Origin: Shewanella oneidensis MR-1
GTDB taxonomy: Bacteria; Pseudomonadota; Gammaproteobacteria; Enterobacterales; Shewanellaceae
Assembly: GCF_000146165.2 (NCBI RefSeq)
Contig: NC_004347.2
Coordinates: forward strand, 2,046,001 to 2,110,000
Direction of reading: 5' to 3'
DNA length: 64,000 bases
Shown: one piece after another, positions 43,110 to 62,363 of the stretch
How the letters are laid out: each line of letters opens with the position of its first letter
How positions within the stretch are numbered: the first letter of the stretch is position 1
The notes under the pieces: generated by a model
The model's database searches: none
The model's input: only the letters and a program-made list of their open reading frames with translations
What the model was told of the DNA's origin: nothing
Position numbers and translations under genes: made by a program

Positions 43110-43770
43110 GTTGTGTCTCCAAAAAGCTTTTAAGCTTTTCCAGCCCCAATCTTAGTCGCGATTTAATCGTGCCAATGGGGACTTTTAAGGCATCGGCCAG
43201 TTCTTGCTGGGTGAGTTCTTGCATATAAATGCCTTGTACTACTTGGCGTTGTGCAAGGGGCAGGGCATCTAAGTGAGCGAGTAACTTGGCGGTCAATTTA
43301 TGGTCAGGATTATTATCTTGGTTAACAGCAACGTCATAAAGTGGCCAGATATCGTCGCCAAATGCATCTTCTCGGTTATGCTGTACCCGTCTTAGCATAT
43401 CGAAACATTGGTTACGCATGATGGTAAAGACCCACGTGGCGACAGACCCTTTGTCCGCATTGTATAAGTGTGATTTGGTCCAAACGGTGGTCATGGTCTC
43501 TTGAACTAAATCCATGGCTAAGCCTTGTTGATTTAATCGTTGCAGACCAAATGCTCTAATTTTGGGCATGAAGTGGCTGAACAAATAGCCAAATGCCGCT
43601 TTATCCCTTTGATTAGCAACTTTGATGATGGCGCTCACCAAAGGATCGATATCCGTTATATGTTCGTCGGCGGTTAAATTGTGGTTATCGTTTTCCATAG
43701 CCATTTCGATAGGGGGCGATAACTGCCTATCATAGCGATTTTGCGCTAAATGTGATTGAAAATTTTCCAT
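43102..43770 (-). CDS. ECF-family RNA polymerase sigma factor (ChrR-linked, ECF11 type)
   Basis: The product has an acidic N-terminal extension of about 40 residues, then sigma region 2 (FGYLFSHFMPKIRAFGLQRL, LAMDLVQETMTTVWTKSHLYNADKGSVATWVFTIMRNQCFDMLRR) and region 4 (LPLAQRQVVQGIYMQELTQQELADALKVPIGTIKSRLRLGLEKL). The ATG at 43770 has GAAGAG seven bases upstream; another at 43785 does not. Partnership with ChrR puts it in the singlet-oxygen/photo-oxidative stress group known from Rhodobacter. A TGATCC-N16-CGTA element at 43860-43885 is probably its own promoter. Confidence 0.93.
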   Translation of the reverse strand: MENFQSHLAQNRYDRQLSPPIEMAMENDNHNLTADEHITDIDPLVSAIIKVANQRDKAAFGYLFSHFMPKIRAFGLQRLNQQGLAMDLVQETMTTVWTKSHLYNADKGSVATWVFTIMRNQCFDMLRRVQHNREDAFGDDIWPLYDVAVNQDNNPDHKLTAKLLAHLDALPLAQRQVVQGIYMQELTQQELADALKVPIGTIKSRLRLGLEKLKSFLETQHD

Positions 43771-43859
43771 TATTGAGCTCTTCATTTAAGGTTCAACCCC
43801 GTTCGAACATGGCTTCAAATCCTGCTTCGCTTCCAATGTTCGATAAGCATGTTGTCTAA

Positions 43860-43885
43860 TACGTGGCCCTTTGAATAATGGATCA
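43860..43885 (-). promoter_or_regulatory. ECF-sigma promoter before the sigma-chrR operon
   Basis: Read on the minus strand it is TGATCC, 16 bases, CGTA. TGATCC is the -35 of the ChrR-linked sigma group in Rhodobacter; CGTA as -10 is from memory of the ECF11 group and less sure. It is 90 bases before the sigma start, consistent with autoregulation. Confidence 0.72.
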
Positions 43886-57022: not shown

Positions 57023-57041
57023 TCTATAAGGATGTAATAAA

Positions 57042-57720
57042 GTGAAGTTATTTTACCTTATTGTTATAATAACCCTATTGGGTTGTAATGATTCAACGAA
57101 CAAACCGCCTACCCTCATTTAAATCCCTAGCCAATTTTAAACATCCAGTAATGTAACAATGTTTTGAGTTCTGGGTAGAAGATAAAGGTTGGCAACAAAT
57201 TGAAGATGTCTCGGAACTGTCTTGCAGTCGCAATGGTATTTATGCAATCGAAGGCGTTGAAACGTTAAGCAACTTGAAATCTCTTAGCTTCACTTATACG
57301 GCTGTCAACTCATTAGACTGAACAAGCCTTACCGGTTTGGAATATTTAGGGCTTTATGGTAACCCTTATATCAAGAAATTGGATTTATAGTATTTATCTC
57401 CCATAATCGCCTTGAGGAGATTTATCTAACTTAACTAACTTATGGCTTGCAAATTTACAAACCAATTTACTTAAACGTGTAAAAGTTACCAAAACCTAGA
57501 TAGAGTTTCTCTGGCTGGGGGAATGTGATTGAAAACTTGGATTTAAATGAAGTTATCGGGCTACAAGATTTAAGAGCCCAAAGAAATCCCCTTGGTTCTG
57601 TTGAACTTTTCAATTTACCCGATTTAAGGTACCTCGATTTATCCTATACTTCGCTTGAAAATATTGAGCTGAAATACAACACCAAGCTTGAAGGGGTGGA
57701 TCTCGATGGGAACAGAGGCT
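57042..57720 (+). pseudogene. Decayed leucine-rich-repeat lipoprotein
   Basis: A GTG at 57042, with AAGGAT upstream, starts a lipoprotein signal (LFYLIVIITLLGC) that stops at 57120. In the next frame, from 57160, CFEFWVEDKGWQQIEDVSEL and LSCSRNGIYAIEGVETLSNLKSL look like the start of an internalin-like leucine-rich-repeat protein, with a stop at 57319. LTGLEYLGLYGNP and, after further shifts, ENLDLNEVIGLQDLRAQRNPLGSVELFNLPDLRYLDLSYTSLENIELKYNTKLEGVDLDG continue the repeats. At least three stops or shifts separate these pieces, so it is a pseudogene. The last stretch runs into a TonB-receptor fragment. Confidence 0.85.
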
Positions 57721-58185
57721 GTTCACATAGCCTATAACCTTGAAACTGGAATTGGTGATTTTAACTTCAAGTTCGATTTAACCCATGTTTTGGATTTTAA
57801 AGAGCAAGCTAATGCTAGTGCTGAAATGATTGATTACGCGGGTCTTGTTACACAGCCTGATTGGCGCGGAAATTTAGCAACCAGTTGGAAATATGACGAT
57901 TTCTCTGCGGCTTGGACAGTCGTGTATATCGGTAGTCAATCGGCTGATTACTATAACAAGTTAGAAAAGACTACCCGTTATGTCGATTATTCTGACTACT
58001 TTAAACACAATATCCAATTTGCTTATAACCACGCGTACAACGGTTCAATCACCGTCGGGGTAAATAATCTGTTTGATGCAGATGCACCAAACTACTATAC
58101 CTACGCCGATTATCGTGATGTGGACGTCGGATTATATGATGTATTGGGTCGTACTTATTATCTGAGAATTAATCAGAAGTTTTAA
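57706..58185 (+). pseudogene. C-terminal fragment of a TonB-dependent receptor
   Basis: The last 160 residues of an outer-membrane receptor are in one open frame: GTEAVHIAYNLETGIGDFNF, FDLTHVLDFKEQ, LVTQPDWRGNLATSWKYDDFSAAWTVVYIGSQS, SITVGVNNLFDADAP and the end DVGLYDVLGRTYYLRINQKF, whose terminal Phe is the mark of outer-membrane barrels. The plug, most of the barrel and the signal peptide are missing. The 5' end joins the decayed repeat gene at about 57706-57735, which shows a deletion or replacement. It is not expected to be functional. Confidence 0.88.
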
Positions 58186-59708: not shown

Positions 59709-59976
59709 TGCTACAAACCTATATCGAGAAACAAAGGGCGTGCATTCTATCCTATTGCTCCCCTGTTACAAAGCGTGCAGAGAGGTGCTTAGCAATTGTG
59801 ATAACTGTCTAGGGCAATTTAATCTGCTAAATTCAGTTTCCTATCAGCATATTTTGATCATTTCTGTGATTTGGTGATATTTTTTGAAATAAAGCTGAGA
59901 TGAGGTAGGTCTTTTGCAGTAAGCCAACGATAGCACTGTTGTTGGCCACCATTAATCAATAAAAGGAAGCAAGAAT

Positions 59977-60408
59977 ATGAAATCAGTTAAGCAAACAGCG
60001 GTTGCAGTGGCATTAGGTACTGTGGTGGTCGGTTCTACATTCGCAGTAAATGCGCAAACCAATTTGTTCGGATTTGAAACCATGGGATCAGGTTATCAAC
60101 TCGTTGGTTCTGAAGGTAAATGTGGTGAGGGCAAATGCGGTGCCGAGATGAAAAAAGCGGCCGCAGACAAAGCCAAAGAAGGTAAATGCGGTGAAGGTAA
60201 ATGTGGCGCTGATATGAAAAAAGCCGCGGCAGATAAAGCCCACGAAGGCAAATGTGGTGAGGGCAAATGCGGCGCCGATATGAAAAAAGCCGCAGCAGAC
60301 AAAGCTCACGAAGGTAAGTGTGGTGAAGGCAAATGTGGCGCTGATATGAAAAAAACAGCTGAAAAAGTAGACGCTAAGACCGAAGCGGTCAAAAAAGAAG
60401 TGAAATAA
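59977..60408 (+). CDS. hvfA: HvfA-type RiPP metallophore precursor, eight EGKCG motifs
   Basis: The 143-residue precursor has an N-terminal signal peptide (VALGTVVVGSTFAVNA, cleavage near residue 26), a short leader and then four tandem 22-residue units with two EGKCG motifs each. All eight cysteines (49, 54, 71, 76, 93, 98, 115, 120) are in these motifs. Between them are lysine-rich ADMKKAAADKAHEGK linkers. In the Haemophilus HvfA the cysteine of EGKCG is turned by a DUF692 enzyme into an oxazolone-thioamide that binds copper; the same order of genes here supports this. AAAGGAAG lies just before the ATG. The signal peptide means a periplasmic or secreted product. Confidence 0.9.
   Translation: MKSVKQTAVAVALGTVVVGSTFAVNAQTNLFGFETMGSGYQLVGSEGKCGEGKCGAEMKKAAADKAKEGKCGEGKCGADMKKAAADKAHEGKCGEGKCGADMKKAAADKAHEGKCGEGKCGADMKKTAEKVDAKTEAVKKEVK
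60112..60375 (+). repeat. Four tandem 66-base coding repeats in hvfA
   Basis: Each 66-base unit encodes EGKCGEGKCGADMKKAAADK plus two residues, with Glu for Asp in the first and a diverged tail in the last. Many differences between units are silent (for example GGT/GGC, TGT/TGC), which means the protein repeat is kept by selection rather than by recent duplication. Confidence 0.93.
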
Positions 60409-60499
60409 GTTAAGTTGTACTTAGTTGCGATCCTGCTTCAAAACATGGCCAGCCTATGCTGGCCTTTGTTTAGCGGTATCTAAATCAAGGGGTAAAGTG

Positions 60500-61339
60500 A
60501 TGCAAGAACGTGGATTGGTTGGATTGGGGTTACGGCGTGAAATGCTCAGTGAGTTTTGCCAACAGCTACCAAGTGCTATTGATTTTTTAGAGGTCGCCCC
60601 TGAAAATTGGATGACGCTTGGAGGTAAATATGGCAAACAATTTAGGCAGTTAACTGAGCAACATACCTTTTTCTGCCATGGTCTTTCACTCTCAATTGGC
60701 AGCCCTGAGCCGCTGGATCTTGAGTTTGTACGTCGTATTAAAGCCTTTATGGATTTGCACCAAATCGATGTTTATTCAGAGCATTTAAGTTATTGCTCGG
60801 GAGCGGGCCATTTATACGATCTTATGCCAATTCCTTTTACCGAGGCCGCGGTTAAGCATGTTGCAAGGCGGGTAAAGCAGGTTGAGGATATTTTAGAGCG
60901 GCCGCTTATTTTGGAGAATGTGTCCTTTTATGCCGCACCAAGTGCACAGATGACTGAGTTGGCGTTTTTGACTGCGGTGTTAGAAGAAGCCGACTGCAAA
61001 CTCCTGTTAGATGTTAATAATATTTATGTGAACTCGATAAATCATCAATACGATGCGCTGGCATTTTTAAAAGCGATGCCGACTGAGCGGATTGCGTACT
61101 TACATATTGCTGGCCATTTTAAAGAGTCTGAAGAATTATTGATTGATACCCACGGCAGTGATATCAACGCTCCTGTATGGGCACTCCTTGATAGCTGCTA
61201 CGCCGAGCATGGTGTATTGCCAACGCTGCTCGAGCGTGACTTTAATTTGCCCGCCACAGCGCATTTATTGGATGAAATTAATCAAATTCATGCTTATCAA
61301 GCGCGGGCTAAAAGTAACCTAGATAAGAGGATTGCCTAA
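60500..61339 (+). CDS. hvfB: DUF692/MNIO-family RiPP maturase (HvfB type)
   Basis: The 279-residue protein starts at the ATG at 60500 behind AAGGGG. It has the TIM-barrel motifs of the MNIO (multinuclear non-heme iron oxidase) family: FLEVAPENW, FFCHGLSLSIGS (His60), DVYSEHLSY (Glu94, His95), LILENVSFYA (Glu139, Asn140), LLLDVNNIYVN (Asp171), NHQYDA (His182), YLHIAGH (His202, His206), LIDTHGSDINAPVW and TLLERDFN (Glu245), which together can hold two or three irons. It should oxidise precursor cysteines. It starts 91 bases after hvfA and overlaps hvfC by one base. Confidence 0.92.
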   Translation: MQERGLVGLGLRREMLSEFCQQLPSAIDFLEVAPENWMTLGGKYGKQFRQLTEQHTFFCHGLSLSIGSPEPLDLEFVRRIKAFMDLHQIDVYSEHLSYCSGAGHLYDLMPIPFTEAAVKHVARRVKQVEDILERPLILENVSFYAAPSAQMTELAFLTAVLEEADCKLLLDVNNIYVNSINHQYDALAFLKAMPTERIAYLHIAGHFKESEELLIDTHGSDINAPVWALLDSCYAEHGVLPTLLERDFNLPATAHLLDEINQIHAYQARAKSNLDKRIA

Positions 61340-62079
61340 TGGATTTTAAGCAAGTACAGCAATCCTTTATCGATTATATTCGCGATCCGCAACGCCCCGT
61401 TCCAGTAGGGGTGCCGTTAGCGCGGATGCAGGTTTACCGTGAGCTTTTTTTTAACAATGTAATGGGATTTGTCTCGAATGGTTTTCCCGTACTTAAGAGC
61501 TTATACACAGATGAACAGTGGCAAACTTTAGTGCAGGCTTTTTTTGGTCAACATGATTGTAAGTCACCCGTGTTTATTGATATCGCAGGGGAGTTTTTAG
61601 ATTTTCTGCAGTTTCAATATTCCCCCATGGATAGTGATCCGCCCTTTATGCTGGAACTCGCCCACTATGAATGGCTTGAACTGCGGGTGGCTACGGCGCA
61701 GCAAGATGATCGCCAAGAGCTTATTGGCAAAGAAGATATTACCTATCGAAACCTGTGTTTGGCCGCAACAGCGAGCGTGGCACAGTACCAGTATCCGGTG
61801 CAACAAATACGCCCAGATTATCGCCCTTCAGAGCCGCTGGTAAACCCAGTCTATTTTTGCCTTTATCAGGATGAAGTAGGCGAGGTGGGCTTTCTGCAAT
61901 TAACGCCATTAAGCGCACAAGTACTTGGTTATTTAACTGAAAAGGGACAAGGCACTTTTGATGAATTAACTCAATGGCTAGCGGCGACTTACCCGCAAAT
62001 GCCAACAGAGACTTTAACTCAAGGCTGTCTAGCGCTACTTGAGCAACTGGCTACTAAAAGCATTGTGCGCGGTGTGTAG
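61339..62079 (+). CDS. hvfC: DUF2063-family RiPP maturation partner (HvfC type)
   Basis: The 246-residue protein has the DUF2063/HvfC-BufC N-terminal domain: FKQVQQSFIDYIRDPQRPVPVGVPLARMQVYRELFFNNVMGFVSNGFPVLKSL, then YEWLELRVATAQQD, and a winged-helix-like C-terminal part (LSAQVLGYLTEKGQGTFDELTQWLAATY). In this family the partner binds the precursor leader and presents it to the MNIO enzyme. ATG overlaps the previous stop (TAATG). No DoxX-type hvfD follows. Confidence 0.9.
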   Translation: MDFKQVQQSFIDYIRDPQRPVPVGVPLARMQVYRELFFNNVMGFVSNGFPVLKSLYTDEQWQTLVQAFFGQHDCKSPVFIDIAGEFLDFLQFQYSPMDSDPPFMLELAHYEWLELRVATAQQDDRQELIGKEDITYRNLCLAATASVAQYQYPVQQIRPDYRPSEPLVNPVYFCLYQDEVGEVGFLQLTPLSAQVLGYLTEKGQGTFDELTQWLAATYPQMPTETLTQGCLALLEQLATKSIVRGV

Positions 62080-62240: not shown

Positions 62241-62363
62241 ATGAGCAGTCAGCCATTTAAAGACCCATTTAACGTTATGTATTTTATTGGTTTTATCTTA
62301 GTCTTACTGTTGCCGACGCTTCCTGCAAGCCTGACATGGTTAAAGCAATTAGGTTTAATTTAA
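62241..62363 (+). CDS. 40-residue membrane peptide
   Basis: This short gene is supported by a very good ribosome site (GAGGAG, six bases before the ATG), an uninterrupted frame and one strong hydrophobic helix (VMYFIGFILVLLLPTLPASL), with polar ends: MSSQPFKDPFN before and TWLKQLGLI after. It is an inner-membrane single-span peptide. Function unknown. It follows hvfC by 160 bases and so could be part of that message or have its own CRP-linked promoter. Confidence 0.7.
   Translation: MSSQPFKDPFNVMYFIGFILVLLLPTLPASLTWLKQLGLI

Follow-up and report, generated by a model that had tools for sequence, protein, structure and literature searches.

The three-gene locus hvfABC considered here, at positions 59977-62079 of a 64 kb stretch of the Shewanella oneidensis MR-1 genome (contig NC_004347.2, positions 2,046,001 to 2,110,000; the whole stretch is hereafter called the window), has several described counterparts among the loci for ribosomally synthesized and post-translationally modified peptides (RiPPs). 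The hvfABC-hvfX operon of Haemophilus influenzae, responsible for oxazolin, combines a Sec-type precursor carrying paired EGKCG motifs with HvfB, HvfC and HvfX (PMC13419390, PMC7907618), all of which have a counterpart in MR-1. Its precursor contains three AEGKCGEGKCG motifs with six cysteines, compared to four 22-aa units with eight cysteines in MR-1, and the Haemophilus operon also contains, as a fourth member, the DoxX-family gene hvfX (PMC13419390), whereas MR-1 hvfX is located at a distance of around 723 kb and carries a separate copy of the promoter. Control by an extracytoplasmic function (ECF) sigma factor has been reported for the homologous Haemophilus operon (PMC7907618) and is proposed here for Shewanella. 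The fontiphorin locus fonABC of Fontimonas thermophila shares with MR-1 the minimal A-B-C arrangement without DoxX as well as the EGKCG repeats, with seven sites instead of eight (PMC12668002). Likewise, the bulbicupramide locus mmrABC of Microbulbifer shows the A-B-C order, 5-8 EGKCG cysteines and genus-wide conservation; Cu(I) binding was shown for the peptide, the product was undetected in the native host and, as a difference, the accessible text of PMC12538549 makes no link to a sigma factor. The bufferins Buf1 and Buf2 also combine an MNIO enzyme and a DUF2063 partner with a Sec signal peptide, thiooxazole groups and copper, and sigma factor genes occur in Buf1 clusters, but their precursors belong to different families; for a member with 17-residue repeats, a beta-helix model has been reported (PMC12452194).

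We consider it likely that the MR-1 locus encodes an EGKCG captophorin with Cu(I)-binding 5-thiooxazole groups, and that hvfABC and hvfX form one regulon under an ECF factor of the SO_3096 type. Systems of this kind have been described before and have their own NCBIfam models. The new elements are the unlinked HvfX, the promoter shared with hvfA and the tracking of this promoter by SO_3096, which, like the gene identities and their conservation, come from computation. Searches of the open-licence literature yielded no paper linking hvfABC, hvfX and the sigma factor in Shewanella. The captophorin family, with its current chemistry, now takes in a gene set of nearly every genus member examined, including the standard laboratory strain MR-1.

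Organization and family assignment of the hvfABC locus

Three open reading frames (ORFs) are located on the forward strand, i.e. hvfA (59977-60408, 143 aa), hvfB (60500-61339, 279 aa) and hvfC (61339-62079, 246 aa). The last two overlap by 1 base, with the TAA stop of hvfB at 61337-61339 and the ATG of hvfC at 61339-61341. The start of hvfB was set at ATG 60500, with AAGGGG ahead of it; the mechanically defined ORF opens earlier, at TTG 60425. The initial annotation, made from the sequence alone, had given these positions, the single direction and the 1-base overlap, all of which the ORFs confirm, and had supposed a metal-reducing type of host, which S. oneidensis is.

The precursor HvfA starts with a Sec-type signal peptide, as judged by eye, followed by four units of 22 residues (66 bp each, 60112-60375), each composed of EGKCGEGKCG and a 12-residue linker; it thus shows both the signal peptide and the repeated EGKCG motif (eight copies) of EGKCG captophorins. 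The back-translated EGKCG pattern occurs exactly eight times in the window, always within hvfA, with 0.01 occurrences expected, and this number was reached in none of 100 shuffles of the window. As already noticed in the initial annotation, all eight cysteines sit inside these motifs. Within the ten-residue motif block, all codon differences among the four units are synonymous. The NCBIfam model NF050137 (‘HvfA family’) matches the precursor with 104.7 bits over four stretches (cut-off 19.5), while Pfam gives no match for it. NF050137 has three matches in the genome, all at the hvfA locus, and no second precursor of this kind was found.

HvfB is an MNIO (DUF692) enzyme (PF05114, 354.9 bits) and matches NF003818 (‘HvfB family MNIO-type RiPP peptide maturase’) with 436 bits at a cut-off of 360; its nearest solved structure is the relative PDB 3BWW (E 2.3e-68). 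HvfC is the DUF2063/PME1 partner protein with a RiPP recognition element (PF09836 and PF22106), matching NF050145 (‘HvfC family RiPP maturation protein’) with 282.8 bits (cut-off 142), and its nearest solved structure is the relative PDB 3DEE (E 8.6e-9). Both structures were likewise placed in this class by PMC12668002. The models NF050137, NF003818 and NF050145 together uphold the HvfABC-type assignment made initially. In contrast, HvfB does not reach the cut-offs of the bufferin-type BufB equivalog NF050167 (268.8 vs 310 bits) and of the methanobactin MbnB model TIGR04159 (34.9 vs 325 bits).

Further evidence comes from the specificity residues. Arg15-Arg16 and Asp249-Phe250 of FonB have been described as governing specificity and catalysis in EGKCG-type enzymes (PMC12668002), and R12-R13 and D247-F248 of HvfB correspond to them by position and by the R-R and D-F context, a match made with FonB unaligned. 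HvfB therefore carries the catalytic Asp, the Arg-Arg pair and the Phe of the Lys-Cys class of EGKCG captophorins. These four residues and ten further His, Glu, Asp or Asn positions are invariant in 94/94 genus orthologues (the split hvfB of locus L096 was left out), while R13 and F248 are replaced by T/N and A/H in 7/7 paralogues. Considering both the NCBIfam and Pfam matches and these residues, the locus is, by its sequence, of the EGKCG captophorin type (Buf_EGKCG/oxazolin).

Conservation within the genus

A homologue of hvfB was found in 95 of 97 genomes of the genus, and 93 of these 95 loci are syntenic, with the order DksA-like gene, dusC (divergent), hvfA, hvfB, hvfC, DUF454 and apt at least partly conserved. 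The two exceptions are L094 and L095 (genomes G005 and G072).

After dropping one duplicate of the MR-1 locus itself, paralogue loci and loci without hvfC, one set of 95 precursors from these 95 genomes was compared. These precursors contained between 2 (short gene of L071) and 14 E[GA]xCG motifs, with 12 being the commonest count (27 precursors) and eight found in 17; the two precursors with four motifs are truncated, one by the end of a contig (L087) and the other by a masked stretch (L055). All 944 cysteines past residue 38 lie in [DE][GA]xCG. Neighbouring cysteines are mostly 5 residues apart (399 cases), followed by distances of 12 (241), 16 (63), 11 (56) and 17 (40). The initial annotation pointed to up to eight modified sites per peptide; the count is correct, yet it is ordinary within the genus and compared to the 5-8 sites of Microbulbifer precursors (PMC12538549) or the up to 58 cysteines reported in Pseudoalteromonas (PMC12452194). 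Eight sites were therefore discarded as a special feature.

These data also bear on the idea that HvfA is simply a metal-binding repeat protein rich in cysteine and little modified, with hvfBC as under-used relics. This idea could at most draw on L071 with just two motifs and on L096, where hvfB of one species is divided over two frames. We regard it as highly improbable, given the presence of hvfB in nearly all genomes, the invariance of its active-site and specificity positions and the purely synonymous differences within the motif block.

In two relatives (L091 and L092), the first pair of motifs remains EGKCG and most of the later ones have changed to EGSCG or EGTCG, making these loci natural variants bearing on the tolerance of HvfB. 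Two genomes (G003 and G010) harbour a second MNIO cluster, 44 % identical, with a DoxX gene of its own close by (L097 and L098). Moreover, an MNIO paralogue of 34-41 % identity is present in many other genus members, and none in MR-1.

An unlinked hvfX gene with an hvfA-type promoter motif

In MR-1, the hvf operon lacks a doxX gene and thus departs from the Haemophilus type of operon; the two DoxX genes of the genome are both located elsewhere. One of them, at C1:2828601-2829191 on the reverse strand and around 723 kb from hvfA, matches the NCBIfam HvfX model with 241.1 bits (cut-off 80), ruling out that DoxX was simply lost. The initial description of an HvfABC system is therefore right for A, B and C and incomplete in that an HvfX-family gene is found unlinked in the genome. 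At a threshold of E 1e-25, HvfX was matched in 90/97 genus genomes, including 88 of the 93 with a syntenic hvf locus. In G005 and G072, doxX immediately follows hvfBC, while in the other genomes, as judged by eye, hvf and hvfX are located on separate contigs or at least tens of kilobases from each other. The main group is therefore characterized by an unlinked hvfX.

Upstream of hvfA, at 59885-59912 on the forward strand, the window contains an exact match to TGAAAT-N17-GGTCT, which resembles a promoter read by an ECF sigma factor. For the genus comparison, 94 hvfA loci were used, the cut gene of L087 being dropped. The exact pattern was present in 65 of the 94 upstream regions and in 0 of 1880 shuffles, and the relaxed form TGNAAT-N16-18-GGTCT in 76 vs 3/1880, with a spacing of 17 in 76 of 77 TGNAAT matches. 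A unified pattern, [TC]GNAA-N18-GGTC, was found in 89/94; the failures were L094 and L095, together with L074, L076 and L079, which by eye are variants in letters or spacing. Upstream of the control genes dusC (0/92), DUF454 (0/92) and apt (0/61), the unified pattern was absent.

This unified pattern, which had first been used on the order-level data (see below) and only then on hvfX, was present upstream of hvfX in all 30 loci examined, i.e. in those 30 of the 90 genomes that are nearest to MR-1 in sequence. The first six letters were TGAAAG in 18, TGAAAT in six, CGAAAG in four, and TGCAAT and TGTAAT in one locus each. In 23 of the 30 loci, the -35 element of hvfX is intergenic. Since hvfX is unlinked and yet preceded by this promoter type, HvfX and HvfABC appear to be functionally tied, on grounds that are independent of operon position.

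A TGTGA box is located at 59865-59869 (forward strand), 20 nt upstream of the hvfA -35 element. Within 55 nt upstream of this element, 66 of 89 hvfA loci contain TGTGA (60 at 20-21 nt), compared to 7.7 % of mononucleotide shuffles, and at 10-30 nt upstream it is found in 0 of the 30 hvfX promoters examined. The box is possibly a candidate activator site specific to hvfA, perhaps providing an extra input.

The motif alone is insufficient to define a regulon, as a scan of the MR-1 genome with TGAAAT-N17-GGTCT gave three sites vs two in the backward control and the TGNAAT form gave five vs five; definition of the regulon by the exact pattern was therefore abandoned. In relatives, TGAAAT-N17-GGTCT was also seen before a secreted DUF2057-like gene (L291, L292) and an OmpR-type regulator (L298, L299), in two genomes each, and single relatives carry the same motif upstream of gshA, of a gene for a YHS-type lipoprotein and of one for a secreted AhpC-like protein (among L284, L290 and L283), all named by eye. 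These genes are leads to possible further members of the regulon.

SO_3096 as the candidate sigma factor

According to PMC4336711, MR-1 possesses five ECF factors, and five ECF loci were seen in the genome. One of them, followed by a DUF3379 gene, is named SO_3096 here on the basis of the chromosomal order of the five genes and the numbering in PMC4336711, in the accessible text of which SO_3096 is only listed as ECF-like. An orthologue of the SO_3096 type at at least 70 % identity is present in 93 of the 97 genus genomes. The four genomes without it are two that lack an hvfB match and two whose hvf locus is divergent, non-syntenic and devoid of the motif (G005, G037, G055 and G072). Since these four may represent one distant branch, a prediction was stated beforehand and tested outside the genus, in 30 further order members possessing an HvfB orthologue, of which 17 have the factor and 13 do not (two of the latter being too short). 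The predicted motif TGAAAT-N17-GGTC was found in 7/17 genomes with an SO_3096-type factor vs 0/11 without (p 0.023, uncorrected for descent), and the unified pattern in 14/17 vs 2/11 (p 0.0015, likewise uncorrected). A compact arrangement is seen in Arsukibacterium perlucidum, where hvfABC, doxX and an ECF gene of the SO_3096 type share a stretch of around 5.3 kb; the ECF gene adjoins doxX, and three other genes separate hvfC and doxX. Thus, the promoter tracks one little-studied ECF factor, both in and outside the genus. The factor thereby gains a candidate target set and a testable role and, if the assignment is true, would also account for the unlinked hvfX wherever it is found.

Several observations weigh against the reading of an EGKCG captophorin regulon under SO_3096. 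Relatedness confounds both co-occurrence tests, within the genus and outside, and three of the 17 SO_3096-bearing genomes outside the genus lack the unified pattern. The two genes also occur apart: 48 of 74 order genomes with an SO_3096 match (E 1e-30) have no HvfB orthologue of at least 52 % identity, and the 13 genomes mentioned above have HvfB and no SO_3096 match. Upstream of SO_3096 itself, the interval contains no such motif. With regard to hvfX, no match at E 1e-25 was obtained in five of the 93 syntenic genomes (G006, G012, G041, G082 and G083), and no motif lies within 250 bp of doxX in Arsukibacterium (L165) or in L094, L095, L097 and L098. In 22 of the 30 hvfX promoters the -35 element is TGAAAG or CGAAAG, differing in its sixth letter from the predominant TGAAAT of hvfA, and in seven, including that of MR-1, it lies partly within the 3' end of the preceding reading frame and could be preserved in part by selection on the coding sequence. 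The precursor does not reach the HvfA equivalog NF050188 (69 bits vs a cut-off of 95, best stretch 42-95 of 96), the inducer reported for the Haemophilus hvf operon is hypochlorite (PMC7907618), and searches of open-licence papers by locus tag or topic found no experiment on the MR-1 hvf locus; the accessible text of PMC13377108 mentions none of the hvf genes.

The same peptide system could instead be read by another of the five ECF factors, i.e. RpoE2 or one of the SO_3840 or SO_3551 type, an idea in favour of which stand the 13 order genomes with HvfB and no SO_3096 match. A candidate is close at hand, since rpoE2 is located in the window, with its published promoter at 43858-43885, around 16 kb from hvfA. 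However, the published promoters of RpoE (GAACTT..) and RpoE2 (TGATCC..CGTATT) are unlike TGAAAT-N17-GGTCT (PMC4336711), and the motif follows SO_3096 in and beyond the genus. We therefore rejected RpoE2-ChrR as the hvf regulator and consider control by any factor other than the SO_3096 type to be unlikely.

Predicted product and function

The chemistry of related products has been revised. While oxazolin was first described as carrying oxazolone-thioamide groups, an assignment now superseded, alkylation-assisted nuclear magnetic resonance assigned 5-thiooxazoles to fontiphorin, oxazolin and gonophorin (PMC12668002), and the group that originally described oxazolin now agrees on 5-thiooxazole for the Haemophilus product (PMC13419390). 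The oxazolone-thioamide chemistry adopted in the initial annotation is accordingly outdated.

Very probably, the three genes make a small exported peptide with cysteines converted to metal-binding rings. We infer the modification itself, copper binding, export, sigma dependence and the inducer, as follows. The product would be an EGKCG-type captophorin of the oxazolin and fontiphorin kind. The precursor, destined for export, would be bound by HvfC, and HvfB, using an iron cluster and O2, would turn the eight motif cysteines into 5-thiooxazoles, with four hydrogens lost per site and a mass change of about -32 Da for all eight. The peptide would then leave through Sec into the periplasm and bind Cu(I) there. 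Together, hvfABC and the distant hvfX would constitute a single regulon under an ECF sigma factor; this factor is most likely of the SO_3096 type, with the DUF3379 neighbour as its putative anti-sigma factor. If read by an ECF factor, the system would be part of an envelope response to metal, thiol or oxidative stress. It is tempting to speculate further, and we do so tentatively, with some doubt, that an orphan SO_3096-type factor unites a captophorin regulon split over hvfABC and hvfX and that the DUF3379 neighbour is a novel envelope sensor responding to copper or thiol damage. A copper-responsive ECF factor has been shown in another genus (PMC12153292).

Alternatively, the peptide may be made and modified as proposed, with its main role directed against oxidants or another soft metal, such as gold, mercury or zinc, and copper being incidental. 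The hypochlorite induction of the H. influenzae hvf genes proceeds via an ECF factor (PMC7907618), links of bufferins to gold and mercury are discussed in PMC12452194, and the motif promoters of single relatives (few genomes, genes named by eye) precede the secreted AhpC-like gene, gshA, a thioredoxin gene and the YHS lipoprotein gene. On the other hand, copper binding has been reported for fontiphorin, oxazolin, gonophorin and bulbicupramide (PMC12668002, PMC12538549), which leads us to regard such a role as somewhat unlikely and to favour Cu(I) as the ligand. Genome-wide fitness and expression data under copper conditions are available for MR-1 (PMC3658271), and a ‘RiPP like, DUF692’ cluster of the antiSMASH type from a different Shewanella was listed in PMC9138089, whose accessible text does not take it any further.

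Other features of the locus

Between hvfA and hvfB, at 60447-60464 on the forward strand, lies a terminator-like hairpin (GGCCAGC-CTAT-GCTGGCC followed by TTTGTTT). A hairpin with a perfect GC-rich stem of at least 6 and at least four T in the next 8 bases was found in this interval in 54 of the 94 genus loci, with differing letters, which fits an excess of precursor; the hairpin probably holds the precursor above the level of the enzyme. Neither this hairpin nor the ECF-like promoter of hvfA had been noted in the initial annotation. A second hairpin, GCCAACGATA-GCAC-TGTTGTTGGC, is located in the 5' leader at 59923-59946 (forward strand) and forms 10 pairs in the MR-1 fold (z -2.67). By eye, the helix is kept at the same place with altered letters in many of 45 diverse leaders. 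It is thermodynamically modest (mean z -0.7, below -1 in 12/45 leaders), and a role as regulatory RNA was therefore dismissed as weak.

Between hvfC and DUF454, positions 62241-62363 (forward strand) encode a small protein (40 aa) with a single probable membrane span (MSSQPFKDPFNVMYFIGFILVLLLPTLPASLTWLKQLGLI) and, by eye, its own ribosome-binding site. It has no Pfam or NCBIfam match and is conserved in 92 genus loci (93 rows, of which one is a duplicate). Since it was not found at the two loci with hvf away from DUF454 and apt, it may belong to the neighbourhood and not to hvf. Upstream of hvfA, the region 57040-58185 (forward strand) contains remnants, i.e. a leucine-rich-repeat frame broken by stops, with 57525-57737 matching LRR_4, that runs into a 165-aa piece (57688-58185) without a Pfam match, by eye resembling the C-terminal end of a TonB-dependent receptor. 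Finally, an ECF sigma gene (region 4) is located in the window at 43132-43284, and the published MR-1 RpoE2 promoter (PMC4336711) is found letter for letter on the reverse strand at 43858-43885.

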